Below are positions 11,833 through 54,900 of a stretch of DNA of 64,000 nt, in pieces. The notes below the pieces were generated by a model, which saw only the letters and a program-made list of their open reading frames with translations, had not been told where the DNA came from and searched no databases. How positions within the stretch are numbered: the stretch's first letter is position 1; each line of letters opens with the position of its first letter. The stretch covers positions 5,954,501 to 6,018,500 of the forward strand of contig NC_091975.1 in NCBI RefSeq assembly GCF_036711975.1, written 5' to 3'. Source of the DNA: Onthophagus taurus. Its lineage: Eukaryota > Arthropoda > Insecta > Coleoptera > Scarabaeidae. Position numbers and translations under genes: made by a program.

Positions 11833-14261
11833 CCCTTTGTGTCCTAAGAAGTCAAACATTTTGAAACTTTGTAACAGAATCAAACAGAATTAAAACGCTA
11901 TCAAAATACACTCGGTAAAGGCCTTTGGAATAAAATTTTAGCAAAATATGCAATCCCCCTATTTTCGCATAGTCTAAGTGTAAAAAAAGATGCTAATTAA
12001 AAAATTTTTGGAAACCGTGTTTATTGAAATTAAGAAATAAAACTTATTTTAAATTCAAGCTTGAAGCTTTCTGTTTAAATCGATGTATAACAATCGATGG
12101 GTTGAATTAAAAAAATATTGAGAAAAAGAGTATTGAGTTAAAACTAACATTTTCGTATAATCTAAAAGTGTCAAAAAAGATGCTAATTTAAAAATTCCTG
12201 GAAGCCGTATTTATTGAAGTTAAGGAATGAGACTTATTCTAAATTAAAGCTCAAAGCTTTCTCTTTAAAATGATGTATAATAATTGTTGGGTTGGATTGG
12301 AAAAATATAGAGAAAAAAAATTTTGAAACAAAACTTACATTTTCGAATAACCTAAAAATGTTAAAAAGATGCTAATTTAAAAATTCCTGTAAGCCGTATT
12401 TATTGAAATTAAGGAATGAAACTTATTTTAAATTAAAGCTCAAAGCTTTCTCTTTAAAATGATGTATAATAATTGTTGGGTTGGATTGGAAAAATATAGA
12501 GAAAAAAAAAGTTGAAATAAAACTTACATTTTCGAATAACCTAAAAATGTTAAAAAGATGCTAATTTAAAAATTCCTGTAAGCCGTATTTATTGAAATTA
12601 AGGAATGAAACTTATTTTAAATTAAAGCTCAAAGCTTTCTCTTTAAAATGATGTATAATAATTGTTGGGTTGGATTGGAAAAATATAGAGAAAAAAAAAG
12701 TTGAAATAAAACTTACATTTTCGTATAACCTAAGAGTGTCAAAAAAGATGCTATTTTAAAAATTCCTGGAAGCCGTATTTATTGAAGTTAAGGAATGAGA
12801 CTTATTCTAAATTAAAGCTCAAAGCTTTCTCTTTAAAATGATGTATAATAATTGTTGGGTTGGATTGGAAAAATATAGAGAAAAAAAATTTTGAAACAAA
12901 ACTTACATTTTCGAATAACCTAAAAATGTTAAAAAGATGCTAATTTAAAAATTCCTGTAAGCCGTATTTATTGAAATTAAGGAATGAAACTTATTTTAAA
13001 TTAAAGCTCAAAGCTTTCTCTTTAAAATGATGTATAATAATTGTTGGGTTGGATTGGAAAAATATAGAGAAAAAAAAAATTGAAATAAAACTTACATTTT
13101 CGTATAACCTAAGAGTGTCAAAAAAGATGCTATTTTAAAAATTCCTGGAAGCCGTATTTATTGAAGTTAAGGAATGAAACTTATTTTAAATTAAAGCTCA
13201 AAGCTTTCTCTTTAAAATGATGTATAATAATTGTTGGGTTGGATTGGAAAAATATAGAGAAAAAAAAAGTTGAAATAAAACTTACATTTTCGTATAACCT
13301 AAGAGTGTCAAAAAAGATGCTATTTTAAAAATTCCTGGAAGCCGTATTTATTGAAGTTAAGGAATGAAACTTATTTTAAATTAAAGCTCAAAGCTTTCTC
13401 TTTAAAATGATGTATAATAATTGTTGGGTTGGATTGGAAAAATATAGAGAAAAAAAATTTTGAAACAAAACTTACATTTTCGAATAACCTAAAAATGTTA
13501 AAAAGATGCTAATTTAAAAATTCCTGTAAGCCGTATTTATTGAAATTAAGGAATGAAACTTATTTTAAATTAAAGCTCAAAGCTTTCTCTTTAAAATGAT
13601 GTATAATAATTGTTGGGTTGGATTGGAAAAATATAGAGAAAAAAAAAGTTGAAATAAAACTTACATTTTCGTATAACCTAAGAGTGTCAAAAAAGATGCT
13701 ATTTTAAAAATTCCTGGAAGCCGTATTTATTGAACTTAAGGAATGAAACTTATTTTAAATTAAAGCTCAAAGCTTTCTCTTCAAAATGATGTATAATAAT
13801 TGTTGGGTTTGATTGGAAAAATATTAAGAACAAAAATGTTGAAACAACACTTACATTTAAAAGAGTCAAAAAAGATGCTAATTTAAAAATTCTTAGAAAC
13901 AATGTTTATTGAAATTAAAGAATAAGACTTATTTTAAATTTAAGCTCAATGTTTTCTTTTTAAAATGATCTGTAATAATCACACTTAATAACCATTTATC
14001 AAAGAAATACCTTCTTGAACAACAAAATTCAACAGCACCACTTTTCACTAAACTTCTAACCTCACATCTGGATGAATAAGTTTAAAGTGTGCATAAAAAT
14101 CCTACAGTGCGGATTGCGACGTTTTTTATACAGATTATTTCTTGTATACACTTGTATAGTAGAAAGTACAGACAGCTCTAAATGCGCCGAATAGATAACT
14201 ACAGTTTAAAATGAGTGTTTAAAATTACAGGTACTTTAAAGTACCGTCGGGACACAAAGGG
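11833..14261. mobile_element. TTAA element carrying a 190-bp satellite, copy 1
   Basis: Complete copy flanked by TTAA (11829-11832 and 14262-14265). The left terminus is CCCTTTGTGTCC and the right terminus is its inverted copy, GGGACACAAAGGG. TTAA target and CCC start are typical of piggyBac-type ends. There is no transposase. Eleven tandem monomers of about 190 bp fill the interior. Near the right end there is a 16-bp palindrome, GGTACTTTAAAGTACC. It sits in a unit of the 764-bp array, and an uninterrupted TTAA of another unit (17354-17357) shows the empty site. Confidence 0.9.
11975..13900. repeat. ~190-bp tandem monomers inside TTAA element copy 1
   Basis: The word AAAGATGCTA recurs near 11985, 12178, 12368, 12556, 12747, 12935, 13126, 13316, 13505, 13696 and 13874, giving 11 monomers of 178-193 bp. 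Two subtypes mix. One has CCTAAAAATGTTAAAAAG and TTCCTGTAAGCC; the other has CCTAAGAGTGTCAAAAAAG and TTCCTGGAAGCC. The edge monomers are more diverged. Confidence 0.92.
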
Positions 14262-17200
14262 TTAAATTGCAATGCAGAGTAGAAATAGTGGAGGTGAATA
14301 AACAAAAACCTAAGGATGCCGAAGCGAAACGGGTTTTAATCTTTTTTGATTTTCAAACTCAACCTTTCAAAAAAAAAAATTACTTGTTTTCTCGAAACAT
14401 TTCAACTAAAACGTACGTAATTTTATTAAAATAAATCGCACTAACTTTAATGTGCAACACACCCTAGAAAAGAATCAGGTGTCAAACGAAATCTTATGCA
14501 TCATCCTACATTCTTTCTATCATGAAATATAAATTTGAAAAATAAAATGTTATGATTTTTCAAGCAGAAAATGTAAAAATGTATTGAATCGTAACGTTTT
14601 GTCAAGTACAAATCCAATGAATAGGGTTCGAATTGGTTTTTATATGGAAATATTACACCGACGCTCAAATCGCGATTTACCAAGATTTGTTTTGGTAAAA
14701 ATAAGAAATAAACAAATTTAGAAACGACTCACCGAGTGGATGTTGCTTTCCTTGGTTCTCGCATTGTAGCTCAGCTGGAAAGAAAAAATAAATTAATCTA
14801 TTGTGACAAAAAATGAATTAATACGATACCTTTTAACATCCACAAAATAGCAATCCGGCGATCTCAACGTCACTAACGTCACTAACACCACTACCATCAC
14901 CCAACACTTAGCACAAATATAAGACGTATTTATCACTTAATTCGCGTAATAAGTTTCAATTTTCGCAACCGCTTTATCACCCCACAATGCCCGCATATCA
15001 ACTAAAATGCGTTATTAGCCAACCAACACCCCAACATCCCCTCTTTGAATAGCAATGCAGAGAAGAAGTGGTGGAGGTGAATAAACAAAAAGCCTAAGGA
15101 TGACGGATTTTCTGGTTTTAAAACTGAACCTTTCAAAAAAAAATTACTCGTTTTCTCGAAACATTTCAACTAAAACATACGTAATTTTAATAAAATAAAT
15201 CGCACTAATTTCAATGTGCAACACATCCTAGAAAAGAATCAGGTGTCAAACGAAATCTTATGCATCATCCTACATTCTTTCTATCATGAATTATAAATTT
15301 GAAAAATAAAATGTTATGATTTTTCAGGCAGAAAATGTAAAAATGTCTTGAATCGGAACGTTTTGTCAAGTACAAATCCAATAAATAGGGTTCGAATTGA
15401 TTTATATATGGAAATATTACACCGGCGCTCAAATCGCGAATTACCAACATTTGTTTTGGTAAAAATAAGAAATAAACAAATTTGGAAACGACTCACCGAG
15501 TGGATGCTGCTTTCCTTGGTTCTCGCATTGTAGCTCAGCTGGAAAGAAAAAATAAATTAATCTATTGTGACAAAAATGAATTAATACGATACCTTTTAAC
15601 ATCCACAAAATAGCAATCCGGCGATCTCAACGTCACTAATGTCACTAACATCACTACCATCACCCAACACTTAGCACAAATATAAGATGTATTTATCACT
15701 TACTTCGCGTAATAAGTTTCAATTTTCGCAACTACTTTATCACCCCACAACGCCCGCATATCAACTAAAACGCGTTATTAGCCAACCAACACCCCAACAT
15801 CCCCTCTTTGAATAGCAATGCAGAGAAGAAGTGGTGGAGGTGAATAAACAAAAAGCCTAAGGATGACGGATTTTCTGGTTTTAAAACTGAACCTTTCAAA
15901 AAAAAATTACTCGTTTTCTCGAAACATTTCAACTAAAACATACGTAATTTTAATAAAATAAATCGCACTAATTTCAATGTGCAACACATCCTAGAAAAGA
16001 ATCAGGTGTCAAACGAAATCTTATGCATCATCCTACATTCTTTCTATCATGAATTATAAATTTGAAAAATAAAATGTTATGATTTTTCAGGCAGAAAATG
16101 TAAAAATGTATTGAATCGGAACGTTTTGTCAAGTGCAAATCCAATGAATAGGGTTCGAATTGGTTTTTATATGGAAATATTACACCGGCGTTCAAATCGC
16201 GAATTACCAAGTTTTGTTTTGGTAAAAATAAGAAATAAAAAAATTTGGAAACGACTCACCGAGTGGATGTTGCTTTCCTTGGTTCTCACATTGTAGCTCA
16301 GCTGGAAAGAAAAAATAAATTAATCTATTGCGACAAAAAATGAATTAATACGATACCTTTTAACATCCACAAAATAGCAATCCGGCGACCTCATCGTCAC
16401 TAATGTCACTAACATCACTACCATCACCCAACACTTAGCACAAATATAAGATGTATTTATCACTTAATTCGCGTAATAAGTTTCAATTTTCGCAACTACT
16501 TTATCACCCCACAATGCCCGCATATCAACTAAAACGCGTTATTAGCCAACCAACACCCCAACATCCCCTCTTTGAATAGCAATGCAGAGAAGAAGTGGTG
16601 GAGGTGAATAAACAAAAAACCTAAGGATGCCGAAGCGAAACGGGTTTTAATCATTTTTTGATTTTAAAACTCAACCTTTCAAAAAAAAAATTACTCGTTT
16701 TTTCGAAACATTTCAACTAAAACATACGTAATTTTAATAAAATAAATCGCACTAATTTTAATGTGCAACACATCCTAGAAAAGAATCAGGTGTCAAACGA
16801 AATCTTATGCATCATCCTACATTCTTTCTATCATGAAATATAAATTTGAAAAATAAAATGTTATGATTTTTCAAGCAGAAAATGTAAAAATGTATTGAAT
16901 CGTAACGTTTTGTCAAGTACAAATCCAATGAATAGGGTTCGAATTGGTTTATATATGGAAATATTACACCGGTGCTCAAATCGCGAATTACCAAGATTTG
17001 TTTTAGTAAAAATAAGAAATAAAAAAATTTTGAAACGACTCACCGAGTGGATGTTGCTTTCCTTGGTTCTCACATTGTAGCTCAGCTGGAAAGAAAACAT
17101 AAATTAATCTATTGTGACAAAAAATGAATTAATACGATACCTTTTAACATCCACAAAATAGCAATCCGGCGATCTCAACGTCACTAATGTCACTAACATC

Positions 17201-20200
17201 ACTACCATCACCCAACACTTAGCACAAATATAAGATGTATTTAGCACTTAATTCGCGTAATAAGTTTCAATTTTCGCAACTACTTTATCACCCCACAATG
17301 TCCGCATATCAACTAAAACGCATTATTAGCCAACCAACATCCCAACATCCCCTCCTTAAATTTCAATGCAGAGTAGAAATAGTGGAGGTGAATAAACAAA
17401 AAACCTAAGGATGCCGAAGCGAAACGGGTTTTAATCATTTTTTGATTTTAAAACTCAACCTTTCAAAAAAAAATTACTCGTTTTCTCGAAACATTTCAAC
17501 TAAAACATACGTAATTTTATTAAAATAAATCGCACTAATTTTAATGTGCAACACACCCCAGAAAAGAATCAGGTGTCAAACGAAATCTTATCCATCATCC
17601 TACATTCTTTCTATCATGAAATATAAATTTGAAAAATAAAATGTTATGATTTTTCAAGCAGAAAATGTAAAAATGTATTGAATCGTAACGTTTTGTCAAG
17701 TACAAATCCAATGAATAGGATTCGAATTGGTTTTTATATCGAAATATTACACCGGCGCTCAAATCGCGAATTACCAACATGTGTTTTGGTAAAAATAAGA
17801 AATAAAAAAATTTTGAAACGACTCACCGAGTGGATGTTGCTTTCCTTGGTTCTCACATTGTAGCTCAGCTGGAAAGAAAAAATAAATTAATCTATTGTGA
17901 CAAAAAATGAATTAATACGATACCTTTTAACATCCACAAAATAGCAATCCGGCGATCTCAACGTCACTAATGTCACTAACATCACTACCATCACCCAACA
18001 CTTAGCACAAATATAAGATTTATCTATCACTTAATTCGCGTAATAAGTTTTAATTTTCGCAACTACTTTATCACCCCACAATGTCCACATATCAACTAAA
18101 ACGCGTTATTAGCCAACCAACACCCCAACATCCCCTCTTTGAATAGCAATGCAGAGAAGAAGTGGTGGAGGTGAATAAACAAAAAGCCTAAGGATGACGG
18201 ATTTTCTGGTTTTAAAACTGAACCTTTCAAAAAAAAATTACTCGTTTTCTCGAAACATTTCAACTAAAACATACGTAATTTTATTAAAATAAATCGCACT
18301 AATTTCAATGTGCAACACATCCTAGAAAAGAATCAGGTGTCAAACGAAATCTTATGCATCATCCTACATTCTTTCTATCATGAATTATAAATTTGAAAAA
18401 TAAAATGTTACGATTTTTCAGGCAGAAAATGTAAAAATGTATTGAATCGGAACGTTTTGTCAAGTACAAATCCAATGAATAGGGTTCGAATTGGTTTTTA
18501 TATGGAAATATTACACCGACGCTCAAATCGCGATTTACCAAGATTTGTTTTGGTAAAAATAAGAAATAAACAAATTTAGAAACGACTCACCGAGTGGATG
18601 TTGCTTTCCTTGGTTCTCGCATTGTAGCTCAGCTGGAAAGAAAAAATAAATTAATCTATTGTGACAAAAAATGAATTAATACGATACCTTTTAACATCCA
18701 CAAAATAGCAATCCGGCGATCTCAACGTCACTAACGTCACTAACACCACTACCATCACCCAACACTTAGCACAAATATAAGACGTATTTATCACTTAATT
18801 CGCGTAATAAGTTTCAATTTTCGCAACCGCTTTATCACCCCACAATGCCCGCATATCAACTAAAATGCGTTATTAGCCAACCAACACCCCAACATCCCCT
18901 CTTTGAATAGCAATGCAGAGAAGAAGTGGTGGAGGTGAATAAACAAAAAGCCTAAGGATGACGGATTTTCTGGTTTTAAAACTGAACCTTTCAAAAAAAA
19001 ATTACTCGTTTTCTCGAAACATTTCAACTAAAACATACGTAATTTTAATAAAATAAATCGCACTAATTTCAATGTGCAACACATCCTAGAAAAGAATCAG
19101 GTGTCAAACGAAATCTTATGCATCATCCTACATTCTTTCTATCATGAATTATAAATTTGAAAAATAAAATGTTATGATTTTTCAGGCAGAAAATGTAAAA
19201 ATGTCTTGAATCGGAACGTTTTGTCAAGTACAAATCCAATAAATAGGGTTCGAATTGATTTATATATGGAAATATTACACCGGCGCTCAAATCGCGAATT
19301 ACCAACATTTGTTTTGGTAAAAATAAGAAATAAACAAATTTGGAAACGACTCACCGAGTGGATGCTGCTTTCCTTGGTTCTCGCATTGTAGCTCAGCTGG
19401 AAAGAAAAAATAAATTAATCTATTGTGACAAAAATGAATTAATACGATACCTTTTAACATCCACAAAATAGCAATCCGGCGATCTCAACGTCACTAATGT
19501 CACTAACATCACTACCATCACCCAACACTTAGCACAAATATAAGATGTATTTATCACTTACTTCGCGTAATAAGTTTCAATTTTCGCAACTACTTTATCA
19601 CCCCACAACGCCCGCATATCAACTAAAACGCGTTATTAGCCAACCAACACCCCAACATCCCCTCTTTGAATAGCAATGCAGAGAAGAAGTGGTGGAGGTG
19701 AATAAACAAAAAGCCTAAGGATGACGGATTTTCTGGTTTTAAAACTGAACCTTTCAAAAAAAAATTACTCGTTTTCTCGAAACATTTCAACTAAAACATA
19801 CGTAATTTTATTAAAATAAATCGCACTAATTTCAATGTGCAACACATCCTAGAAAAGAATCAGGTGTCAAACGAAATCTTATGCATCATCCTACATTCTT
19901 TCTATCATGAATTATAAATTTGAAAAATAAAATGTTACGATTTTTCAGGCAGAAAATGTAAAAATGTATTGAATCGGAACGTTTTGTCAAGTACAAATCC
20001 AATGAATAGGGTTCGAATTGGTTTTTATATGGAAATATTACACCGGCGTTCAAATCGCGAATTACCAAGATTTGTTTTGGTAAAAATAAGAAATAAAAAA
20101 ATTTTGAAACGACTCACCGAGTGGATGTTGCTTTCCTTGGTTCTCACATTGTAGCTCAGCTGGAAAGAAAAAATAAATTAATTTATTGTGACAAAAAATG

Positions 20201-23200
20201 AATTAATACGATACCTTTTAACATCCACAAAATAGCAATCCGGCGATCTAAACGTCACTAATATCACTAACATCACTACCATCACCCAACACTTAGCACA
20301 AATATAAGATGTATTTATCACTTAATTCGCGTAATAAGTTTCAATTTTCGCAACTACTTTATCACCCCACAATGCCCGCATATCAACTAAAACGCGTTAT
20401 TAGCCAACCAACACCCCAACATCCCCTCTTTGAATAGCAATGCAGAAAAGAAGTAGTGGAGGTGAATAAACAAAAAGCCTAAGGATGACGGATTTCTGGT
20501 TTTAAAACTCAACCTTTCAAAAAAAAATTACTCGTTTTCTCGAAACATTTCAACTAAAACATACGTAATTTTATTAAAATAAATCGCACTAATTTCAATG
20601 TGCAACACATCCTAGAAAAGAATCAGGTGTCAAACGAAATCTTATGCATCATCCTACATTCTTTCTATCATGAAATATAAATTTGAAAAATAAAATGTTA
20701 TGATTTTTCAAGCAGAAAATGTAAAAATGTATTGAATCGTAACGTTTTGTCAAGTACAAATCCAATGAATAGGGTTCGAATTGGTTTATATATGGAAATA
20801 TTACACCGGCGCTCAAATCGCGAATTACCAACATTTGTTTTGGTAAAAATAAGAAATAAAAAAATTTGGAAACGACTCACCGAGTGGATGTTGCTTTCCT
20901 TGGTTCTCACATTGTAGCTCAGCTGAAAGAAAAAATAAATTAATTTATTGTGACAAAAAATGAATTAATACGATACCTTTTAACATCCACAAAATAGCAA
21001 TCCGGCGATCTCAACGTCACTAATGTCACTAACATCACTACCATCACCCAACACTTAGCACAAATATAAGATGTATTTATCACTTAATTCGCGTAATAAG
21101 TTTTAATTTTCGCAACTACTTTATCACCCCACAATGCCCGCATATCAACTAAAACGCGTTATTAGCCAACCAACACCCCAACATCCCCTCTTTGAATAGC
21201 AATGCAGAGAAGAAGTGGTGGAGGTGAATAAACAAAAAGCCTAAGGATGACGGATTTTCTGGTTTTAAAACTGAACCTTTCAAAAAAAAATTACTCGTTT
21301 TCTCGAAACATTTCAACTAAAACATACGTAATTTTAATAAAATAAATCGCACTAATTTTAATGTGCAACACACCTAAGAAAAGAATCAGGTGTCAAACGA
21401 AATCTTATGCATCATCCTACATTCTTTCTATCATGAAATATAAATTTGAAAAATAAAATGTTATGATTTTTCAAGCAGAAAATGTAAAAATGTATTGAAT
21501 CGTAACGTTTTGTCAAGTACAAATCCAATGAATAGGGTTCGAATTGGTTTATATATGGAAATATTACACCGGCGTTCAAATCGAGAATTACCAAGATTTG
21601 TTTTGGTAAAAATAAGAAATAAATAAATTTGGAAACGACTCACCGAGTGGATGTTGCTTTCCTTGGTTCTCGCATTGTAGCTCAGCTGGAAAGAAAAAAT
21701 AAATTAATTTATTGTGACAAAAAATGAATTAATACGATACCTTTTAACATCCACAAAATAGCAATCCGGCGATCTCAACGTCACTAATGTCACTAACATC
21801 ACTACCATCACCCAACACTTAGCACAAATATAAGATGTATTTATCACTTAATTCGCGTAATAAGTTTCAATTTTCGCAACTACTTTATCAACTCACGATG
21901 CCCGCACATCAACTAAAATTAAAATGCGTTATTAGCCAACCAACACCCCAACATCCCCTCTTTGAATAGCAATGCAGAAAAGAAGTGGTGGAGGTGAATA
22001 AACAAAAAGCCTAAGGATGACGGATTTTCTGGTTTTAAAACTGAACCTTTCAAAAAAAAAATTACTCGTTTTCTCGAAACATTTCAACTAAAACCTACGT
22101 AATTTTATTAAAATAAATCGCACTAACTTTAATGTGCAACACATCCTAGAAAAGAATCAGGTGTCAAACGAAATCTTATGCATCATCCTGCATTCTTTCT
22201 ATCATGAAATATAAATTTGAAAAATAAAATGTTATGATTTTTCAAGCAGAAAATGTAAAAATTTTTTGAATCGTAACGTTTTGTCAAGTACAAATCCAAT
22301 GAATAGGGTTCGAATTGGTTTTTATATGGAAATATTACACCGGCGTTCAAATCGCGAATTACCAAGATTTGTTTTGGTAAAAATAAGAAATAAAAAAATT
22401 TTGAAACGACTCACCGAGTGGATGTTGCTTTCCTTGGTTCTCACATTGTAGCTCAGCTGGAAAAAAAAAATAAATTAATCTATTGTGACAAAAAATGAAT
22501 TATTACGATACCTTTTAACATCCACAAAATAGCAATCCGGCGATCTCAACATCACTAATGTCACTAACACCACTACCAACACCCAACACTTAGCACAAAT
22601 ATAAGATATATTTATCACTTAATTCGCGTAATAAGTTTCAATTTTCGCAACTACTTTATCACCCCTCAATGTCCGCATATCAACTAAAACGCGTTATTAC
22701 CCAACCAACACCCCAACATCCCCTCTTTGAATAGCAATGCAGAGAAGAAATGGTGGAGGTGAATAAACAAAAAGCCTAAGGATGACGGATTTCTGGTTTT
22801 TAAACTCAACCTTTCAAAAAAAAATTACTCGTTTTCTCGAAACATTTCAACTAAAACATACGTAATTTTAATAAAATAAATCGCACTAATTTCAATGTGC
22901 AACACACCCAAGAAAAGAATCAGGTGTCAAACGAAATCTTATGCATCATCCTACATTCTTTCTATCATGAAATATAAATTTGAAAAATAAAATGTTATGA
23001 TTTTTCAAGCAGAAAATGTAAAAATGTATTGAATCGTAACGTTTTGTCAAGTACAAATCCAATGAATAGGGTTCGAATTGGTTTTTATATGGAAATATTA
23101 CTCCGGCGCTCAAATCGCGAATTACCAACATTTGTTTTGGTAAAAATAAGAAATAAAAAAATTTGGAAACGACTCACCGAGTGGATGTTGCTTTCCTTGG

Positions 23201-24500
23201 TTCTCACATTGTAGCTCAGCTGGAAAGAAAAAATAAATTAATCTATTGCGACAAAAAATGAATTAATACGATACCTTTTAACATCCACAAAATAGCAATC
23301 CGGCGACCTCATCGTCACTAATGTCACTAACATCACTACCATCACCCAACACTTAGCACAAATATAAGATGTATTTATCACTTAATTCGCGTAATAAGTT
23401 TCAATTTTCGCAACTACTTTATCACCCCACAACGTCCTCATATCAACTAAAACGCGTTATTAGCCAACCAACACCCCAACATCCCCTCTTTGAATAGCAA
23501 TGCAGAAAAGAAGTAGTGGAGGTAAATAAACAAAAAACCTAAGGATGCCGGAGCGAAACGGGTTTTAATCATTTTTTCATTTTAAAACTCAACCTTTCAA
23601 AAAAAAATTACTCGTTTTCTCGAAACATTTCAACTAAAACATGCGTAATTTTATTAAAATAAATCGCACTAATTTCAATGTGCAACACACTCTAGAAAAG
23701 AATCAGGTGTCAAACGAAATCTTATGCATCATCCTACATTCTTTCTATCATAAAATATAAATTTGAAAAAATCAAATGTTATGATTTTTCAAGCAGAAAA
23801 TGTAAAAATGTATAGAATCGTAACGTTTTGTCAAGTACAAACCCAATGAATAGGGTTCGAATTGGTTTATATATGGAAATATTACACCGACGCTCAAATC
23901 GCGAATTACCAACATTTGTTTTGGTAAAAATAAGAAATAAAAAAATTTTGAAACGACTCACCGAGTGGATGTTGCTTTCCTTGGTTCTCGCATTGTAGCT
24001 CAGCTGGAAAGAAAAAATAAATTAATCTATTGTGACAAAAAATGAATTAATACGATACCTTTTAACATCCACAAAATAGCAATCCGGTGATCTCAACGTC
24101 ACTAATGTCACTAACATCACTACCATCACCCAACACTTAGCACAAATATAAGATGTATTTATCACTTAATTCGCGTAATAAGTTTCAATTTTCGCAACTA
24201 CTTTATCACCCCACAATGCCCGCATATCAACTAAAACGCGTTATTAGCCAACCAACACCCCAACATCCCCTCTTTGAATAGCAATGCAGAGAAGAAGTAG
24301 TGGAGGTGAATAAACAAAAAGCCTAAGGATGACGGATTTCTGGTTTTAAAACTCAACCTTTCAAAAAAAATTACTCGTTTTCTCAAAACATTTCAACTAA
24401 AACATACGTAATTTTATTAAAATAAATCGCACAAACTTTAATGTGCAACATATCCTGGAAAAGAATTAGGTGTCCAACGAAGTATTATGCATCATCCATC

Positions 24501-37995: not shown

Positions 37996-37999
37996 TTAA

Positions 38000-39902: not shown

Positions 39903-42900
39903 ATGTTAAAATGGACCGTAATTAATAAACGAGCGACCGATAAAGACGATCTTCAATCGCCACAACAACCAAAATCATCGGAAAAACCTAAAAGAAGACG
40001 TTCGAGTACTTCTAGAAGATCATCAACGACGAAACGATCGAATAATAATCATAACAGAAGGAGTTTAAATTTGAGCCATGATAAAGAAAATCGGTTTACT
40101 TCGACACCGATTAAATCGAATGATTATTTTCAAGTTGAAGCTTTAAGAGATGTTAGTAATATAACGCCGAAAGAAACGAAAACGAAAGTTTTAAGTGTTG
40201 ATGGGGAAAAATTGTTTTCGCCGAAACATGTAAAATATAAAAAGAAAAAACGGTGTTTAGATCCAAATCATAAAGATTGCCCGATTAATTATTTTAAAGC
40301 TTTCGAATCAGTTGATTCGCATATTAGGGGGGATAATTGTTTATGTAACGATGATTTGAATAAAAATGTGCACGAAAATATCAAGAATGATGTTGTTAAT
40401 AGAATTCCGTTGTTATCGAGAATTTTGCCAACAACAAATAACGATGATCCTCCATATAAAAAACCGAAAATTGATCACGTTAATGATTTTTTAAATCAAA
40501 TAGCTTTTATTCAATCGCCTGAAGATAAAGGTACGATAGATATTGATGAAAAAGATTTAAAAGTTTCACCTTTAGTACAAAGATTTTTAGATTTACGATT
40601 TTCGAAAAAAGATCAACACGAAAACTCATCGTACATAAACGAGCTATCTTTAGATGAACTTGTAAATGTTATATTAGATAATTCTGGGACGAATGATGAT
40701 AAAAAACATCCGGTTAAAAAAACTAGAATGACCGAGCTTGAAAATGAACTTAACGAATCTCGCGAAGAAAATTTATTAAACGCTAAACAAGAAAAACGTA
40801 TTAGTTTTTCCGATAAAAGTTCGATGGATTCTGGATTTCGATCGAACTTTGATGAAATCTGTAAATTACCTGAGATAATTAACTGTGATAAAACCATCAT
40901 TAACCTCGAGGAAACTTTTAATGAGAGATGTGTTGATGATATTAGACCTAGAAGTAGAAAGAGGAGTTTATCTCAAGATGATGCTAGCTTATTTACATTA
41001 AAAAGGCAAAAATGTGTTAGAAGAAGAAGGTTTACTGATGACGAAGCAAAACCAAGTTCCGGTTGGACACCGCAAAGATTACATCAAGATTTAAACGCAA
41101 CTTTTTCAATTAACGATGATGTTAACGATGATAATTCGTTTGATTCGAGTGTTATGGAGAAAGATTTAGGAAATAAAAAAGATTTAATCGAAACGACTCC
41201 TTGTTTTAATAATGGCACGGGAATTAGGAGGTGTTTACTCTTCGATTCACCACCTAACCAAAAAAATAACTCAATTTCCGGTTGGATGGATTTAGAAATT
41301 AAATTTCGAAACAACGAATTATTATTAACAGGTTAGTAATTATTGTCATTGAGTATCATTATTAGATAATTTTAATCCTTAAATTTATTTTTTTTCAGTT
41401 TTCCGGTGTGGTAATTTATTCAGATCGGATGGAAAACCGGCGAACGCTTATATTAAGGTGAGTTTGATTATTTTCGAGGCGGACATAATTTGAGATTTCG
41501 CTTGTAAATCAATCGAAACGCGTGTTTAACACAAACAGCTGCGGAATGGAAGTTTTGCGATCGCGACGTGCGTTTCCGGTGTTTTTTTTGGGGGCGTGTC
41601 TCGCGTTCGAACAATTCTTACCCCTTCGAATTTCTTATTAACTCACCGACGACCTAATAACAGCCTAACGTCTTTTATATATTTTGGGTGTAAAAGGTGT
41701 TTGTAAACCTTTTAAAAACAATCATAAAAAATTGTCTTAAAAAATCATGTTGTTTTTATTTGGGAGTTTCAATTTCTTTTGGTGCAATCTTGCACCTTGT
41801 AAATATCGTTCAAGTAAGACTTATCGGGATGATGTGTCCAGAACGGATTCATCCAACATTTTCTTAACAACTGGAGTTTTAGTGAAATAACCTCGAGGTT
41901 CACGACAACCATGTCTAGTTCCACAATGATTGAGTCTCACCAGTTTCGATGTGCTATGATTCAAGAACACAAGAAGAAACTAAGATCCTGAAGAAGAATC
42001 CAGAAATCAGAAAAAAGTAATAAGTGCGAATGAAGTAAGTTTTGAAAAATAAGATAGAATATGGAGAAGATTCCCAAATAGTTATAAGAAGTCAGAATGC
42101 CGAAATCAAGAATACTGCAGAAAGCGAGCAGATATGTAATGTTTTAATGATGCAATAAATTTTGGAAGCAAAGATGAAAAATTGGAAATGGTTTGTCAGG
42201 GGAAGAACGGAGTGTGGTGCAGGTTAGGGCAGAACCAAAAACAGCTTTCGCATCAGCAAAAATTCTGATTACTCAACCTAGAAATCTCAATTTAATCATA
42301 CATTCATAAGCTATAACTGCACAAGATAAGGACCACAATGATCTACAAGAAAATATTTCAATACAGAACCAAAATAAAAAAAAATGTAAGCCAGTACAAG
42401 TAGAATGTAAGTCATTATACACAGTGGCGTAACTAGAAAATATGGGCCCAAATATGTCTTTATAGCAAAGGTAGTAATACTATGTATACATATTATGGTA
42501 TACAGAAAAAAAAACACAAATTAAGTTGAAAATACTTATTTATTTTCAAATTTACTAACAAAAAACCAAGAACTAAGAACTAAATTATTACAAAAGTTGT
42601 TTTCTTCTAGATTTCATCGCTGCAAATATACTTATTAAATTTTTTAAATCCATTTTCTTAGCCTCACTGCTTTCAATTGCTAATATAGAAAGATTATTCA
42701 GCCGCGATTGTCCCATACTATTTCTTCTATAGTCCTTTATTATTTTTAACTTGCTAAATGATCTTTCTACAGAAGCAACTGTTGCAGGGAGTGTGAAGAA
42801 CAATATAAAAACAGAAAATACATCCGATATATCAGTTTCTAAGCAATTATATTTGGTCATTACTAAGTTAGCAAAATCTTTTACACTTTGCAATTCTTTT

Positions 42901-45900
42901 AACTTGTCTTTTAAAAGCGAATGAACATGAATAAAATGCAATGAAAATTGTTCACTTAAAAAAGTTGAATACTTCTTTTGTAATTTTTTACATTCTCTTA
43001 AAATATCTTTGTCTTTTAACGTTGATAATCTTTGTGGATCCAGAAATCCAAAATAATTTCTTAATTTTTCCATGCTTTTAAATCTTTCATGTAGTTGATG
43101 TGAAATAGTATCTATGACAACATTAAATATTCCAACTCTAAACATATCTTCTCTTGAAGAAAAGTGATAATTTTTCGCCAATTCATCAAAATGGTGTTTC
43201 ACTTTAGGCTGTCGTTTCTTTTGAAACTCAAGGGGAACATTCCAAGTTCTTGCAATTTCTGCAGCCTCACCTTTTATTTCAGTAAATTTTGATCTACGTT
43301 CTGAAACTTTATTATAAGCTTGGTTCAAAACAGTTTTGGCTTCATCTAAATCTACATTTTTCTTTTGTAGAACTTTTCAAGCTAAATTAATATCTGCTAG
43401 AATTTTATGCAAAAAGACGCACATAAAAATAAACTCAAATTTTTCCATTCTATCTTTTATGTTTTGAGCTTCATCACGAATTTCTTTTTTCTCTGTCAAC
43501 ATCAAGTGTGTTAAAGATTTTATAATATCTAAATAACGTAGTTTCACAGCTAGTAGAGAAGTCAATCTTCCAGACCATCGAGTAGGATTTAATTTTTTTA
43601 AAGTTACATTTGATTCGCCTGTGAACTTTGAAAGCAAATCCCATCTATTAATAGAATTTCCAAAAAATGAATATATTTCTTGGAGTGTAACGAAAAATGC
43701 GGACACATCTTTATTGACAAGATTTAAATTATGGCTTGCACAATGAACGTACTCTGCATTTTGTTGAATGTTCTTTATTTTTTGTTCAGACCATTGTATA
43801 TACCACTCATTACATTCGCTCCGTCGTATCCTTGACCAATACATTTTTCAATTGGTATCTTCATTTCGTCTAATATAGATAGAATTTTATTTTTCATTCC
43901 CTCAGCAGTAAGATCTGTTTGATCAAAAAATCCTAAAAAAAGTTTCTTTAATTTGAAACCCTTGAGATTCTAAGCGATCATTTCTTAGAATATGCACATG
44001 TCTAATCATTACACTTAATTGGTCCTTTTTCACTATATCTTGGGTAGTATCCAATAAAAGCGAATAACATAAACTATTGTTAATTTCACTCATTAAATTT
44101 CCTCTAAGATTTTGCCCTGCACATTGAATTAGTTCGTTTTGAATTTTGGGACTTAAGTATCTAACTGATCCATTTGGCATGTCAATTACTTGTTTTAAAA
44201 TATTGTCATATTTAGCCAATAATTCAACTTCTGCTATAAAATTGCCGTTATAATCATCTCCGATATTTTCTGAATGGCCACGAAATGAAGTACGATTTCT
44301 TGCCAACTTTAAAGTAATATCAAACAAACGCTTTAGAACCTTTCTCCAAAAGATTTCATTTTGGCGAATAAGCTCCTCTGAGCATTTGTCTATTGTCTTA
44401 TTTTCTTGCCAAATTTTATGCACTGCCAACGCTTCAATATGATGCTTTGTAAGAGAATGAGTGTTCAACTTATTGGAAAAACTTTGCCAATCACGCATAC
44501 CAGTACACCATTGATTTTTTTGGCCAGAGAATAACCAACATGGTTTACAGTAAGCTGCAACAAGAATTTTCGAATAGTGTAACCAAGATCGAGGAACTGG
44601 ACCATATTTAGTAATGCATGTGAAAAATTTTGCAGAAAAGCAACGATTATTCTGCATCGGATCTCTGGGAAATGGTCCTTGTGGTTTGTTTATTGTATCG
44701 TCTAGACCCACTAAAAACCGTCTAAGTTTATCTGTTAAATTGATGTTATTTTGTACATAATAACCCAAATCCGGATCTCTAAATTCTGAGTTTTCTTCGT
44801 CGTTGTTTTCCTCATTTTCATTTAGGAAGTGCAGCACTTGTGATTTTTGATGTTGTGTTGTATTTATTAAACCAGCAGTACTTGAACCAAAAGCACTTAT
44901 TTCTACTTCTGGAGTGGAAACATTTTCCTGTGTCTCCACACTTTCTACTCTTTTCAATTTTTGGAGGAATGTATCTATTTTTGGTAACTTTTTTCTTTTT
45001 TCATCCTTTTCTCTTTTTATCTTTCGCTTTTGTGCCCCACTGGCAACTTTTTTCTCCATTGTATTTTATGGACTAAAACAAATACATACATTTTGTAATT
45101 TTGTAAGCACATATTTATGAACATATCCATATACAGTATTAACAGTATTATACAGTTATACAATATTAAAGTAATGTAAATACAGGGCTATTTAAAAGTA
45201 GAGCACCAAACTTCAGCTACGTTTTGCTTTTATAAAACTTTCAGTTGTTACCTACAACACTGAAAATAAAACTTTAAAGTCGATTATCTCGAAAACAAAG
45301 ACCGATCGGAAAAAATGGTTTCATTTCGACTTGAAATCAGAAGTTCTACACGGGCTTCCAGTTTGGTGCACGATGTCTCAGCAAGACCGTTTATTAGACG
45401 TTTATGGGGTTCTGGCCAAAATAAAAATTTAAGTACAATCAGTTTTGGTGCCGAGAAGGGCTGTCTATATCGTTTGATCACTTTACTATGGCACGTTAAT
45501 TTTTCGAAATTTGGAAGTACCATAACTTCATTTGTTTAAACGGCAACCCCCATATTTTATTACTTAGTCGTCTTCACCGTTTCATTTTACATCTTTTATA
45601 TCCCATACGTGCTATACCTAACATTAATAGTTTGGGAGATAATTAGGGTATTTTAAGAAATGCACACATATCATATTGATGCATAGTGTGCATAGTAACT
45701 TGCAGATTGTTTAATGAAAACTATCCACATTAACCACATTCCGATGACAAAAGGTAAATTTAGAAGAATGGAAACAAAATTTTTGCAATTTTGGATTAAT
45801 CACGTGTTTAACCGACCAAAATAAATTGGTAAGAAAGTAATAAGTGCGAATGAAGTAAGTTTTGAAAAACAAGATAGAATATGGAGAAGATTCTCAAATA

Positions 45901-48900
45901 GTTATAAGAAGTCAGAATGCCGAAATCAAGGATACTGCAGAAAGCGAGCAGATATGTAATGTTTTAATGACGCCATTCGGCGTGGATTATTAGCCTGATG
46001 TTGCAAGTGCAATAAATTTTGCAAGCAAAGATGCAAAATTGGAAACGGTTTGTCAGGGGAAGAACGGAGTGTGGTGCAGGTTAGGGCAGAACCAAAAACA
46101 GCTTTCGCATCAACAAAAATTCTGATTACTCAACTTACAAATCTCAATTTAATCATACATTCATAAGCTATAACTGCACAAGATAAGGACCACAATGATC
46201 TACAAGAAAATATTTCAATACAGAATCAAAATAAAAAAAAATAATACAGGGTTTTCCAATAAGAGGTGTTATTTTGATATTCAAAGAAAAATGCCATTTT
46301 TTAGTATAAATGATCGGATGTTTATTTCATTATAAAGAAGAAGGTATGCCGATAATAGTGGAAAATAACGCTAGGCAAATGACCACCACGACCACGCTTA
46401 CAGGACAATATCCTTTCCATGAAATTTTCCATAACCAAATTGCAAAGTGGCTGCCCTATGTCCTCAATAGCCTCACGAATTCCATCTTTGAGGTCTTGAA
46501 TCGACGCTGTGCTGTTGGCGTACACCTTGTCTTTCACGTGGCCCCAAAGGAAGAAGTCGCAAGATCTCGGTGGCCAATTGTGATCACCTCTTCGAGAGAT
46601 AACACGGTCCGGAAACTTTTCCCGTAAAAGATCAATGGTTTCGTTGCTTGTGTGGCACGTAGCACCGTCTTGTTGAAAGTAAACGTTGTCCACATCAATA
46701 CCATCCAATTCCGGCCATAAAAAATCATTACTCATCTCTCGATAGCGCAATCCATTCACCGTAACTGTTGCTCCAGCCTCATTTTCGAAAAAGTAAGGTC
46801 CAATGACTCCGTCGGACCATAAACCGCACCAAACAGTCACACGTTGAGGATAGAGAGGCTTGTCAACAATAACTCTTGGGTTTTCCGAGCCCCAGATGCG
46901 ACAATTTTGCTTGTTGAAGCCGCCGAGGTGGAAATGGGCCTCATCATTCAAGATGATTTTTCGATGAAATTCCGGATCATTTTCATGCATTTCAACGACC
47001 CAATCAGCAAAGACGCGACGTTGTTGATGATCGGACGGCTTGAGTTCTTGTGTTAACTAAAGTTTATAAGCCTTAAGACCCAAATCTTTATGCAAAATAC
47101 GGTGTAATGACGTTTGTGGAATGCCTAATTCCAAAGAACGACGAGGAATGGACAAACCTGTTTTTCTTCAACACTTTCCGCTACAGCAGCAATATTCTCG
47201 GCTGTTCTTGAGCGACGTGTACGGGTTTTGTTCTTCACATCACTAACTTATCCCAACAGCTCGAATTTTTCCACCAATATCTGTATTGCGGTCCGACAAG
47301 GTGCTTCGCATTCGACTTTTACGAACCGTCTCTGCCAAAATTTCACCACTTTTATATTGAATTTTAATAATTTCAATGCGTTGTTGATGCGTGTATCGTT
47401 CCATTTTTATTAATGGCGTACTTCCTACTTGTCAAATGTCAAAAAATGACAGCTTCAAAAGTGACATCTACCGAAATAACGGGCTATTCAAAATAACACC
47501 TTAATGAAAACTATCCACATTTACCTCCGATGACAAAAAGTAAATTTAGAAGAATGGAAACAACATTTTTGCAATTTTGGATTAATCACATGTTTAACCG
47601 ACTGGATGTTTAAAATTTTTGAAGCCAATTCTAATGCCTCAATTCGAGGTGGGAATCAGTAGGTGTTCAGTGCAGAGGATCTTGAAGAAATATTAGTTCC
47701 ACGAGTACAAGTTCTCGTTAGTGCAAGACCTTCATCCTCAAAATCCCGACGACCGACTGAATTTGTGTCAAATCCGCTATTAAGAAGATGAACACTTTTT
47801 GAAAAAAGTTATATGGACAATTTGGGCTTCCGTCAACCCGCATGCAATCCGAAAAACAAACTATGAGGTTAGGTTTAGTTTCAACGTTTTTGCCTTATGA
47901 TGGAAGGCAGGTTCTCTTACGTCATTTATGACAGTGTTTGATGGCAAAACGTTACCTGAATTTTTACATACTGTATAACTTCTCTTGGTACTTGATAAGA
48001 AGCTGTTGGTATTAACTAGATGGAGGTCCGTCTCATTGCACCCAGGAAGTATCCTAGGAACTCACCTCTCAATATTCGAAGACAGGTGGCTAAGACGGTT
48101 AGGACATGGAAGCACATGGACAGTCTCTTTCCTCAAGATGTACAAAGAGGCGGACGGCTACCATTTCAAACATTTCTTGTAACTTGTTTCTAGCTTTTTA
48201 TATGATATACATATATATCTTGGTCACACTATTAAAATTGTCGAAGAAAATCAACCAGCTGAAATAAAGTGGCGGATTCAATGATCGTTTGGAAATCTCA
48301 TTTTTATGCTGAAAAACAAAGAAATACCGAAACGCCTAAAATGAAAGGTGTGTGACAACTGCATATTGCCGGTGACTTGAAATCATGGCTTTCACAAGGA
48401 AGGTTGCAGAAACTTAATGTAACCCAAAAAGAGATAAAACGAGCAAGCTGGAAGATTCGAAATAACGATTTCGCAGAATAATCCAAGTGACAGATGTTAT
48501 GAGTCGAGTAGTAAGGGTTAATTGGAATAACCTTTTAGAGACCACGAGAAGCTAGAAGAGGTGGATGGATAATGTGATAGGTGTGGTGGGGAAAGAATGG
48601 ATAAGAACAGCTAAAAGCAGAGTCTATGTCCAGCAGTGGATGAAAACAGGCTGAGGAAAAAGAATCATAAAATAATTCATAACAACTACACCTAAACAGT
48701 TATATTTATTATATTTTTACCAGTTTCATTACCTAAATAGTGACATCCTCAGGAATTTTTCGTTGAAATTTTAAACATATAAAATGTAAAATCATGGTGA
48801 TAAGATTTAATAAATAAAAAAAAATTAATTTATATTTTAAATCTTAATCTTTTTTCTTCGGTAGTACCTAAGTAGACGTTTATTATAAAAGAAAATTTAT

Positions 48901-51900
48901 GATCCCTCCAATTCGAAAATATGTAAGTACTAAAAAATCCGGTAGTAATAAATCTCAAATCGTGAAGGGGGTCAGTTTTCTTGTCCCCTAGGTCCCCACG
49001 GGGTGGAACCGCGGACTACAAATTGAATTTATTGTAGCGTATAAATAACGAGTGCCGTCTTCAAAAGGATAGGAAGGTAACGGAAGAGCAGACGTCTGCC
49101 CTTTTTCTTTTTACCTTTTTTTTCCTTTCACTTTTTTTCTTTCTGTTTGCGTCTGGATGCAAAAGATCCAGTGCGAACGCATTCAGCCAACCAAATACAA
49201 AAACGGATGCGTCGCGGTTGCATCTCGCTTTTCCCTCGGGATCAGAGGGCCGTTTCAATCATATTCAAAACCGATTAGCTGAAACTGGCCTACGGTTGAA
49301 GGCGAAGGGTTGGCAGCTACAAGAATCCTTGACGCGTAGCAACAGCTGACTGGGAATTTACCCTTCCTTTTTGACGATTTATATTTAGGTTTAAACGCGC
49401 CACGTCTTGAAAACCTTATTTATTCGAGAATTGTTCGTTTCTAATTAATTTTCGAGGTTCAACTAAAATAAAGATTGACGCAACGTGTCACCTTGGAAGT
49501 TTAGAACTTTGTAATCGATATCTTTTGAGATACCCACTCTAATTAGAGTGACTCTCTTTGTGGTTTCGTTTCATTTTCGGTGTGTATGTTATGTTATTAA
49601 GCGTAAAACACGCAACTTCACCATTAATAACTAAAATAGATATGTTTCGGTTTTGTGGACAAATTGAATTGTTATTTAACAAAAAAAATTCAAATTAGTC
49701 TAATGATAGGTTTAAACCGCAACTTAATTAAAGAGGGGATATTTATTTTATTTTCTAAACCGTAACTAATTGTGTAAGGGGTGGTTTTTATGTGGTTTTA
49801 GAAATATTTCAATTTTTTTTATTTTTTGAAAGGTCTCCTTGAGCCAACGCGATAATCGAAAAGGACGAGGAACTTTACAGAGGACCGCCGTCCAAGCCGA
49901 ATCCAACAAGCCGACCTTCAACCACACCTTCAATTTAGCCGTTCTTCGGGACGAAGACGTTTACGAAAGGGTTTATATTGAAGTTTGGCATCGAGATAGA
50001 ATACGAAGGTGAGGCGCCGAAAATTAAAAACAACTTAAAATTTTATGATTTCTTTAAAAGATCAATATTTTCAAAATTGTACGATTTTTTTATCGTTAAT
50101 AATAGAATATGATAAAATCGGTTCTTGGAGAAATAGCGCAACTCTGTTGGAGTGTACGATTTGCGCAAAATCCGCTCAGGATCGATGCGATCGCAACATT
50201 AGAGTCCCTGTAACCCGAAATCAGTGGCGTTCGTGTGGCTTTTCCTCGACCCTCTTCGAGCAAGGTTAAGGTGTGCCTAAAACGATTTGTGAAATATAAA
50301 TAAATATATATCATCAAAAAAATAAAAATAAATTTCGCGATAAAATTATGTTTTGATCAAATTAAAAATCGTTTTAATTTATTATTTCCAATGGTTTGAA
50401 ATCATTTAAAACAATTCGATTTCTTTTATCGCGATCTTTTTGACTCCAATCCAGTGTTGCAAAAAAAGCGCATTGCGGATAAACCAAGTCTTGACGTCTA
50501 GTTATCTTACCCCGGGGTTAAAAATGTCCAGGAAACCTTCAGACTGCGTGATACGAGGTTAATCGATAAGTAAGCTATTTTTTCTTTCCATCCCGGTATA
50601 CTGACCTAAATCGAATTAATAATTGACCTAAAACCGAATTTATTAAATTTTTCTTTGCAGAAAAAGCGAATTCTTGGGATGTATGTCTTTTGCGGCCGAA
50701 AATGTCATTACAAAGGTAAATTTTATTTTAATTAAAAAGAAATTAAATTAAACAAGTTAATTTTTATTTAGGATGTTAAAGGCTGCTTTTACCTACTTCC
50801 ACAATCCACCGGAAGATGTAAAAATGTTCCGATGACCCTGGACATTCTACCGGATTACAATCCTCATCTTGATAAAACGATGTGTGATAGTCATTCAAGT
50901 ATCGATGAAGTTGCCACGGCAGTCTTCACAACCGGTGAAGACCTCGAAGACCTTCGAAAAACAACAATTGGATGTAAAGCCGCCTTGAGCGAACAACAAA
51001 AGCTTGCGGATGAGAATCTTTTTCTCAGGTAAATAAGTAATTTTTGAAATAATTCGTTTTTAAGATATTTTCTTGCTAGGTACTTGGAGTTGGATCCAAC
51101 GGAAGGTCCTGAGGCGATACCAGCCGCTCTTCAACGTAAAGCGACCGGGAATAAGAACGGTCGCACTCCTTTCACAACCACCAAAAAGTTGATGCGACAA
51201 CCGAAGACCGGTTTTGGATTCTCGGTGGTCTGGACGCATCCTCCGAGAATTGAAAGGGTCGAAAAGGGGCTCCCCGCGGATAAGGCGGGAATCTTGCCTG
51301 GAGATTACGTCATTTTTGTCGATAAACATAATGTGGTTATGATGCCCGAGATTGATATTCTTAATTTAATCAGGTAAATATTTTTCACTTTTATTTTTTA
51401 TTAACCCTTTGTGTACCAAGAAGTCAAACATTTTGAAACTTTGTGACAGAATCAAACAGAATTAAAACGCTATCAAAATACACTCGGTAATCCCCCTATT
51501 TTCGCATAGTCTAAGTGTAAAAAAAGATGCTAATTAAAAAATTTCCAGAAACCGTGTTTATTGAAATTAAGAAATAAAACTTATTTTAAATTCAAGCTTG
51601 AAGCTTTCTGTTTAAATCGATGTATAACAATCGATGGGTTGAATTAAAAAAATATTGAGAAAAAGAGTATTGAGTTAAAACTAACATTTTCGTATAATAT
51701 AAAAGTGTCAAAAAAGATGCTAATTTAAAAATTCCTGGAAGCCGTATTTATTGAAGTTAAGGAATGAAACTTATTTTAAATTAAAGCTCAAAGCTTTCTC
51801 TTTAAAATGATGTATAATAATTGTTGGGTTGGATTGGAAAAATATAGAGAAAAAAAATTTTGAAACAAAACTTACATTTTCGAATAACCTAAAAATGTTA

Positions 51901-54900
51901 AAAAGATGCTAATTTAAAAATTCCTGTAAGCCGTATTTATTGAAATTAAGGAATGAAACTTATTTTAAATTAAAGCTCAAAGCTTTCTCTTTAAAATGAT
52001 GTATAATAATTGTTGGGTTGGATTGGAAAAATACAGAGAAAAAAAAAGTTTAAATAAAACTTACATTTTCGTATAACCTAAGAGTGTCAAAAAAGATGCT
52101 ATTTTAAAAATTCCTGGAAGCCGTATTTATTGAAGTTAAGGAATGAGACTTATTCTAAATTAAAGCTCAAAGCTTTCTCTTTAAAATGATGTATAATAAT
52201 TGTTGGGTTGGATTGGAAAAATACAGAGAAAAAAAAAGTTGAAATAAAACTTACATTTTCGTATAACCTAAGAGTGTCAAAAAAGATGCTATTTTAAAAA
52301 TTCCTGGAAGCCGTATTTATTGAAGTTAAGGAATGAAACTTATTTTAAATTAAAGCTCGAAGCTTTGTCTTTAAAATGATGTATAATAATTGTTGAGTTG
52401 GATTGGAAAAATATAGAGAAAAAAAATTTTGAAACAAAACTTACATTTTCGAATAACCTAAAAATGTTAAAAAGATGCTAATTTAAAAATTCCTGTAAGC
52501 CGTATTTATTGAAATTAAGGAATGAAACTTATTTTAAATTAAAGCTCAAAGCTTTCTCTTTAAAATGATGTATAATAATTGTTGGGTTGGATTGGAAAAA
52601 TATAGAGAAAAAAAAAATTGAAATAAAACTTACATTTTCGTATAACCTAAGAGTGTCAAAAAAGATGCTATTTTAAAAATTCCTGGAAGCCGTATTTATT
52701 GAAGTTAAGGAATGAGACTTATTCTAAATTAAAGCTCAAAGCTTTCTCTTTAAAATGATGTATAATAATTGTTGGGTTGGATTGGAAAAATACAGAGAAA
52801 AAAAAAGTTGAAATAAAACTTACATTTTCGTATAACCTAAGAGTGTCAAAAAAAGATGCTATTTTAAAAATTCCTGGAAGCCGTATTTATTGAAGTTAAG
52901 GAATGAGACTTATTCTAAATTAAAGCTCAAAGCTTTCTCTTTAAAATGATGTATAATAATTGTTGGGTTGGATTGGAAAAATATAGAGAAAAAAAATTTT
53001 GAAACAAAACTTACATTTTCGAATAACCTAAAAATGTTAAAAAGATGCTAATTTAAAAATTCCTGTAAGCCGTATTTATTGAAATTAAGGAATGAGACTT
53101 ATTTTAAATTAAAGCTCAAAGCTTTCTCTTTAAAATGATGTATAATAATTGTTGGGTTTGATTGGAAAAATATTAAGAACAAAAATGTTGAAACAACACT
53201 TACATTTAAAAGAGTCAAAAAAGATGCTAATTTAAAAATTCTTAGAAACAATATTTATTGAAATTAAGGAATGAGACTTATTTTAAATTTAAGCTCAATG
53301 TTTTCTTTTTAAAATGATCTGTAATAATCACACTTAATAACCATTTATCAAAGAAATACCTTCTTGAACAACAAAATTCAACAGCACCACTTTTCACTAA
53401 ACTTCTAACCTCACATCTGGATGAATAAGTTTAAAGTGTACCTAAAAATCCTACAGTGCGGATTGCGACGTTTTTTATACAGATTATTTCTTGTATACAC
53501 TTGTATAGTAGAAAGTACAGACAGCTCTAAATGCGCCGAATAGATAACTACAGTTTAAAATGAGTGTTTAAAATTACCGGTACTTTAAAGTACCGTCGGG
53601 ACACAAAGGGTTAAAAAAATTGCAGACATAGTATTAAATATGTAATTTGTTTGTTGCCAGTATAATTACAAAGTTTTTCTTGAAAACTGCAATTTTGCCA
53701 GATAATTTTAGTTATTTTCAGTGTTATTCTTGCAGTCTAAAACATGATAGTGTAACTCCAGATTTTTTTTGATACTCTCTGTACTCCTGATAGTGAATAT
53801 TTTAAACTGTTTCTTGCACTTTGGAAATTGTCCAGCTAATTCCTGACATGTCGTTAAAGTTTCTATTCTGGAAAGAATAAATTTATGCATTTTCTTTGCT
53901 ATACTATAAAAGTAGAAATGTTGGTTAACTCTGCATTTTTTTGTTTAGGTCATATGGTAATCAATTAACATTAGAAATATTCAGAAGAAACTCTTCAAGG
54001 AATGGTTCAGTGCCTAGCGTAAAACCACTGATGAGTTTCGAAAATATCGGTGGAGGTTTACCAGCTCCATCTTTATCGACCCAAAGAAGACCTTCAACGG
54101 TTTGTTCGACGACTAATACAGCATCGGTCGATTACAGCAGAAAAAAACTCCAATTACCTCAAATCACGTTTAATTCGGAGGTTGGTAGCGGTGTCTTCGT
54201 GTAAAAAATTGTTTTTATTTATATTACACAGCCAGTATTTTTAATTTCGTTGCTTTTTATAAGTATTTATTCAAGGCCAGTATTTTCTTTTTCAAGCTAG
54301 AGAAATCTCGAAGTATTATGGGCATATAATTCGTTTCTCTATTAATTTTTTTTTCATTTGTATTTTATTTCCTAATTTATTTTTTGTATATTGTTGAAAC
54401 GAGTTTTTAGTTATTATTATTATTAATACATTATATTTTGTTTTTATAAACACAACTTTTTATTTTTGATTTCCTAATTATCCTTTTCCCTTTTTTAAGA
54501 AACATCTCGTTTTAAAAATTAATTTCAGAAATTAACCAGTAACATTGACGACTCGAGAAAAAAATCGATCCTTCAGTTAATAAGCAAAGAACAACAGTAC
54601 GCCACTGGTCTTCAATTTGCAATTACAAGATTCGTTTCGGCGTTGGCAGAAAGGAAAGATCTCGTGACGCAACGAGAACATAAAGTGCTTTTTCAAAATT
54701 GTGATGAGGTAAAAAGGAATTTTATCTGGTGATGTTGTTAAAAGAAATACTTTTAGCTTCTTCATATAACGGAAGAAATCTTGGAACATTTAGTACAAGA
54801 GGATGGCGATTCTCAAGTTCACATCCTACCAAAAATTTACTTTGCAAAATTAAGTGAAATGACCTCGGCGTACAAAAAATACTGTTCTGGGATAAAAAAA

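Follow-up and report, generated by a model that had tools for sequence, protein, structure and literature searches.

How satellites leave heterochromatin and come to be scattered between genes as short arrays remains to be explained, and a 64,000-nucleotide stretch of the Onthophagus taurus genome (contig NC_091975.1, positions 5,954,501 to 6,018,500 of the forward strand; hereafter the window) bears on this. At three places in this window, a 190-bp monomer is repeated in tandem between shared transposon ends, the right one truncated in copy 2. We describe here one case of satellite carriage, and we regard it as very likely that the carrier is a piggyBac-like element which took up a satellite, spread at TTAA sites and changed in array length.

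An earlier reading made from the letters alone (the sequence-only reading) had placed the three copies at 11833-14261, 38000-39577 and 51405-53610, with 11, 7 and 10 monomers. All three were found there, and counting by anchors gave the same numbers. Copy 1 (plus strand; 11829-14265 when its TTAA at 11829-11832 and 14262-14265 are included) is composed of a left end with its subterminal part, ending with the left junction word (11833-11967), the monomer array (11968-13976), and a right subterminal part with the right end (13977-14261). Copy 2 (37996-39580, plus strand) starts at 38000, directly after its TTAA, and is truncated on the right as had been reported, the final ~70 bp being gone and the common sequence being kept to ~39580. 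Copy 3 (51401-53614, plus strand) has TTAA on both sides. The terminus said to be common is indeed shared by the copies, but copy 3 starts with CCCTTTGTGTAC and not CCCTTTGTGTCC (one change). Tandem Repeats Finder returned the same arrays from the window, with periods of 190 and 379 bp, and the irregular alternation of two main interior monomer types was seen within the copies.

The whole assembly (290.8 Mb in 33 contigs, C1, C3, C5, C7, C10 and C15 being among them) was then searched. Among ends whose match reaches the last base, TTAA was found directly before 38 of 39 left ends and directly after 41 of 41 right ends; this tally leaves out 7 left and 9 right matches ending short, and most of its loci came from similarity searches with queries lacking TTAA, only 3 of the 41 right ends having been chosen by a TTAA-containing pattern. 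TTAA was present at both sides in 24 of 26 complete satellite elements. Moreover, copy 1 interrupts a tandem array of ~14 units of 764 bp (11429-24497, plus strand), which is absent from the tandem-repeat listing, whose period limit was 500 bp. When joined at one TTAA, the flanks of copy 1 align across the insertion point to 13 other 764-bp units with 87-93% identity. The unit at 16955-17854 has TTAA at the exact insertion point, and the remaining 12 units have TTGA there. All 13 have 8 extra bp a few bases left of the site relative to copy 1's own unit, and this length difference is, besides substitutions, the sole other difference near the site. Copy 1 is an insertion into a TTAA within the 764-bp array, and the flanking TTAA at both ends, set beside an uninterrupted site with one TTAA, shows that the target is duplicated on insertion.

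The sequence-only reading had based a piggyBac-like affiliation on TTAA and a CCC start. The inverted ends are 13 bp long and start with CCCTTTG (CCCTTTGTGTCCC / GGGACACAAAGGG, from the patterns matched genome-wide), a short CCC-starting terminus of the kind found in beetle piggyBac elements, for which a survey gives TTAA, inverted ends of small size and a start of CCCT or CCCTTT (PMC12732532). The affiliation now has further support from transposase sequence between matching ends, at C3:9161303-9163389. This element has both ends and, between them, minus-strand transposase pieces, three of which match PF13843 (DDE_Tnp_1_7) with E-values of 2.9e-12, 7.4e-6 and 1.4e-4, the last falling just under the Pfam cut-off. 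It shares with copy 1 the right 285 bp, at 88% identity, and 51 + 36 bp on the left. The common left part ends at CAATCCCCC and the common right part starts at AATCACAC; between these two words, copy 1 consists of the array alone, and the satellite-bearing copies hold no DDE_Tnp_1_7 transposase. The element on C3 lies within a retrotransposon stretch that also contains a reverse transcriptase domain (PF00078, 1.3e-18), and joining its flanks leaves one reading frame open over at least 70 aa, with stops in the other two.

With up to 2 mismatches, the 35-bp left-end pattern had 294 matches in the genome and the right-end pattern 299, compared with 0 for the patterns read backwards; the left and right junction words had 145 and 232 matches. 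The ends used below are the listed subsets of such matches, 107 left and 125 right, taken from the first 100 per pattern and 40 per similarity search. The N-terminal transposase piece matched 129 stretches of the genome, with 85 distinct places in the derived list. It lies on the opposite strand just inside 8 of the 125 listed right ends (66-1,057 bp in) and inside 10 of 100 listed right-junction words (108-379 bp in), whereas the wrong side or wrong orientation gave 0; these further transposase-bearing copies are assigned by position alone, the one on C3 being the element that was read. The element on C3 is one of three loci read because their right end lacked a listed left partner. The other two are older or variant satellite copies, and the view that such right ends form a separate sub-family was only partly right. 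Judged by these features, the satellite-bearing copies are probably non-autonomous transposons of the piggyBac superfamily, and they are predicted to be moved by a piggyBac transposase.

Left and right ends co-occur across the genome, as the sequence-only reading had expected: 49 same-strand pairs within 15 kb were found among the ends listed, spanning 913 to 6,898 bp. Likewise, a right-junction partner exists for 38 of 100 listed left-junction words, the arrays between them being 870 to 4,671 bp long. The lengths are clustered, a period of ~189 bp fitting them best (Rayleigh R of 0.67 for the 49 end pairs and 0.87 for the 38 array pairs, both at 189.6 bp). In the 26 fully read satellite elements, a set that leaves out the transposase-bearing element and one listed pair that wrongly joined copies 2 and 3, an internal tandem array of variable copy number lies between the transposon ends, with 13 different monomer numbers, from 3 to 21 by length. 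The three length states described earlier were thus an undercount. The two longest pairs, of 6.8 and 6.9 kb, lie outside the fully read set and would hold ~34-35 units if all array.

The edges of the array are distinctive. First monomers are 94.2% identical between elements and 83.4% identical to interior monomers of their own element, and the last monomer is spaced at 178-179 bp instead of the usual ~190 in 23 of the 26 elements. These position-specific monomers, common to the copies, indicate that the array travels with the element and that its edges are kept. Interior monomers are 94.8% identical within an element and 93.7% between elements, a difference reached by 0 of 1,000 label shuffles, and in one element (C15_3982637) 8 consecutive monomers are identical.

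In contrast to the edges, the monomer number is labile. Where end identity is 99% or more (20 pairs), the two monomer numbers are never equal, compared with equality in 35 of all 351 pairs, the pairs not being independent. Copy 2 and an element at C7:3875736, with 99.4% identical ends, have 7 and 21 units, respectively. Over the 351 pairs, end identity shows no correlation with the difference in monomer number (Spearman 0.075, p 0.16). The array therefore changes in length more quickly than the ends accumulate mutations. The earlier claim that the array expands or contracts while the element moves is supported as to the fast change in length, which may come during the move itself or between moves. 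One could go further and propose that each excision, or the repair of its gap, re-draws the monomer number, so that piggyBac acts as a copy-number mutator of a captured satellite; we advance this tentatively and consider it rather unlikely. If true, the genome would contain a library of short arrays, denser towards contig ends, as a source of new satellite blocks. As a separate observation, 62 of 100 listed left ends lie in the outer fifth of contigs longer than 10 Mb, compared with 25 of 84 transposase pieces (p 2e-6), a contrast which age may confound since the left-end list is made mostly of exact matches. Contig ends are not equated here with chromosome ends. In a separate search, the beetle telomere repeat TCAGG had 0 matches.

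The window also holds satellites that bear on the origin of the monomer. A profile of the 190-bp monomer matched a free satellite of 365-bp period (28300-30762, minus strand) in 13 minus-strand stretches of the 28.3-30.7 kb region (E at most 0.012, best 1.5e-5), in both halves of the unit. It matched a second free satellite, of 352-bp period (33743-35507, minus strand), in 6 stretches between 33.8 and 35.5 kb (E below 0.001, best 1.8e-5), once per unit and in one half of it. These matches lie mostly at model positions 12-106, and the best E-value in a reversed-window control was 1.1. A box of ~95 bp is common to the monomer and both free satellites, on the strand opposite to the monomer. When single units were aligned, 0 of 200 shuffles reached the score of the 365-bp satellite against the monomer. 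No element ends were found at either free satellite. One 365-bp unit used as a query matched further arrays in the genome with 67-76% identity, and some of the matches, at C5:45-51 kb, are spaced by 190 bp. There, at C5:45055-51035, the 190-bp-spaced stretches are 70-71% identical to the 365-bp satellite and may form a larger free 190-bp array near the contig start. The kinship between the monomer and the free satellites of the window suggests that a satellite was taken up by the transposon. The monomer is one of a wider group of satellites, and this makes capture by the transposon the simpler reading. Satellites of Tenebrio molitor were checked as a possible match, and none was established (PMC13192020).

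A variant copy (L091, 1-1801) has transposase-side sequence left of its array and a different right junction. Its last monomer agrees with copy 1 in 27 of 45 end-monomer columns, compared with 8-10 for its interior monomers, although many of these columns come from one deletion or from alignment edges. The overall identity of this last monomer to the end monomer of copy 1 (88.9%) is not above its identity to interior monomers (82.7-89.5%). The agreement in columns at most suggests one common capture for L091 and copy 1.

In the proposed sequence of events, the transposase gene of an ancestral element would have been swapped for a piece of host satellite, with ~90 bp of the element kept on the left and ~280 bp on the right. 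Since both ends were retained, the resulting unit would be movable in trans, and the transposase of full relatives would have moved it into TTAA sites and spread it to a few hundred of them. Unequal exchange, slippage or repair of the excision gap would add whole 190-bp units to the interior of the array or remove them from it.

Conversely, the monomer may have been born inside the transposon by tandem duplication of the element's own sequence and later have seeded free satellites, a course that we find improbable. An end does adjoin an array in the 30 left-end and 30 right-end best-match loci (the left query, with ~14 bp of array, favours such copies), and at C5:180077-182545 there is an array whose flanks, where read, hold no ends. 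Nevertheless, the monomer has no match in the transposase-bearing element, and its diverged relatives exist as free arrays without ends, their divergence pointing to a greater age. The monomer word has at least 5,022 matches in the genome, against 0 for the control, corresponding to ~0.95 Mb or 0.33% of the assembly. With 0.845 word matches to a unit, and with the 49 paired elements averaging 9.95 units, this amounts to ~600 elements' worth, about 2x the ends counted, so that many monomers may sit in copies with decayed or lost ends. On contig C1, a listed end or junction lies no more than 2.5 kb away from 22 of 30 listed monomer clusters. The edges of five arrays were sampled: the array at C15:630-633 kb shows the element on both sides, but at C5:180077-182545 neither flank, as far as read, contains an element end (182147-182499 being outside the reading). 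Arrays at C10:286-291 kb and C5:124-126 kb extend past both stretches read, and that at C5:1944 kb extends past the single stretch read. Arrays without ends may be decayed elements. Among the matches listed, no very large free array of the 190-bp monomer was seen, the longest having ~34 units, and the longest paired copy among the pairs listed is 6.9 kb, although the assembly may collapse larger arrays. The idea that one unit is both a transposable element and a satellite seed was consequently only half sustained. The mobile unit and its TTAA target stand; the seed remains weak, as some arrays do lack listed ends but none seen exceeds ~34 units and the direction of capture is likelier.

Array lengths are taken here from the assembly, and arrays of near-identical units are difficult to assemble. 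The lengths might then be artefacts of collapsed repeats; we consider this very unlikely, because the ends, the TTAA copies and the flanks are assembled at many loci, and the lengths climb by whole units, starting at 3 units (913 bp).

Elements of the Kolobok superfamily also use TTAA, and this shared target is what would favour a mover from that or another TTAA superfamily. Such a mover is most unlikely, as the same-ended element that was read holds PF13843 pieces between its ends and no Kolobok transposase, and one of its pieces weakly matched the piggyBat transposase in a search of the Protein Data Bank (E 0.035). That segmental duplication or dispersed satellite pieces made the copies, with TTAA ends as incidental, is scarcely credible: 3 of 435 pairs among 30 left-end loci do share 146-328 bp of flank right to the junction, but the 2-kb flanks of copies 1, 2 and 3 have nothing in common, TTAA is near-invariant and the 764-bp array has an uninterrupted site, and for the three window copies the unlike flanks and this site rule duplication out. 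The shared left flanks reaching TTAA belong to copies L012, L022 and L026, which may be nested in the same repeat or duplicated.

Several results weigh against a piggyBac-like element with a captured satellite. The transposase on C3, the one read, is frame-broken, and its fourth, N-terminal piece matched no transposase family when searched. The link to the 365-bp satellite rests on ~95 bp, and the single-unit test of the 352-bp satellite against the monomer was not significant (10 of 200 shuffles reached the score). On C1, 8 of the 30 listed monomer clusters are without a listed end or junction within 2.5 kb. The excess of interior identity within elements (94.8 vs 93.7%) is slight, the best match lying in the monomer's own element in 31 of 140 cases, with 26 tied. 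Finally, monomer numbers are one unit apart (18/19 and 7/8) in the two pairs whose ends are most alike (99.76%), and there may be some memory of length at the shortest range.

Transposons carrying tandem repeats are a known kind. As summarized in a review (PMC12628747), miDNA4, a Tc1/mariner miniature inverted-repeat transposable element (MITE) of Xenopus described by Scalvenzi and Pollet, carries a satellite monomer or array and is proposed to release satellites once its ends decay. Both systems are non-autonomous DNA transposons with an internal satellite of variable copy number that is argued to be captured; ours differs in being piggyBac and inserting at TTAA, in the size of its arrays (3 to ~34 units) and in having a relative that bears transposase between matching ends. 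The Tetris foldback transposon and TIR-220 of Drosophila virilis also show transposon-internal tandem repeats in variable number and longer free arrays (PMC4079207). There, however, the repeats lie in the inverted ends, a 37-bp stretch is common to both, and the mobilising element was reportedly not found, whereas the array described here occupies the centre of the element and showed no relation to the ends. The Cg_HINE Helentrons of Crassostrea gigas resemble our element in their central satellite-like array (~165-bp monomers), non-autonomous carrier and many sites, but they are rolling-circle elements with a mean of ~5 monomers in the three largest clusters (PMC7492417), compared with cut-and-paste and a mean of ~10 units over 49 paired copies here. 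The surveyed beetle piggyBac elements share TTAA, short inverted ends and CCCT/CCCTTT starts with ours; the survey gives inverted ends of at most 26 bp in its text (up to 46 in a table) and full elements of 2,074-3,465 bp, and in the main text the words MITE and tandem occur 0 times (PMC12732532). A literature search combining piggyBac and satellite terms, with most subscription papers outside its coverage, found no piggyBac-borne satellite, and a piggyBac member of this kind seems without precedent in the literature searched. A single genome here contains the vehicle with its ends and target, a site left uninterrupted, a relative bearing transposase and hundreds of natural copies that differ in array length, and the rate and timing of satellite expansion become measurable against the divergence of the transposon ends as a clock.

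The window contains other repeats. A satellite of 368-bp period occupies 1-2517; tried as a relative of the monomer, it was rejected, since its pair test score of 21 was reached by 188 of 200 shuffles. Open frames at 42588-45065 (minus strand) with a hAT dimerisation domain (PF05699) and DUF4371 are probably a decayed hAT transposon, and a 244-aa open frame at 46322-47056 (minus strand), which we take to resemble a mariner-type transposase, had no Pfam match at 0.001. An Rfam scan of the window gave no family at gathering scores. Copy 3 sits 27 bp behind the likely splice donor, as judged from the sequence, of an exon encoding a PDZ domain (PF17820, 4.5e-7).

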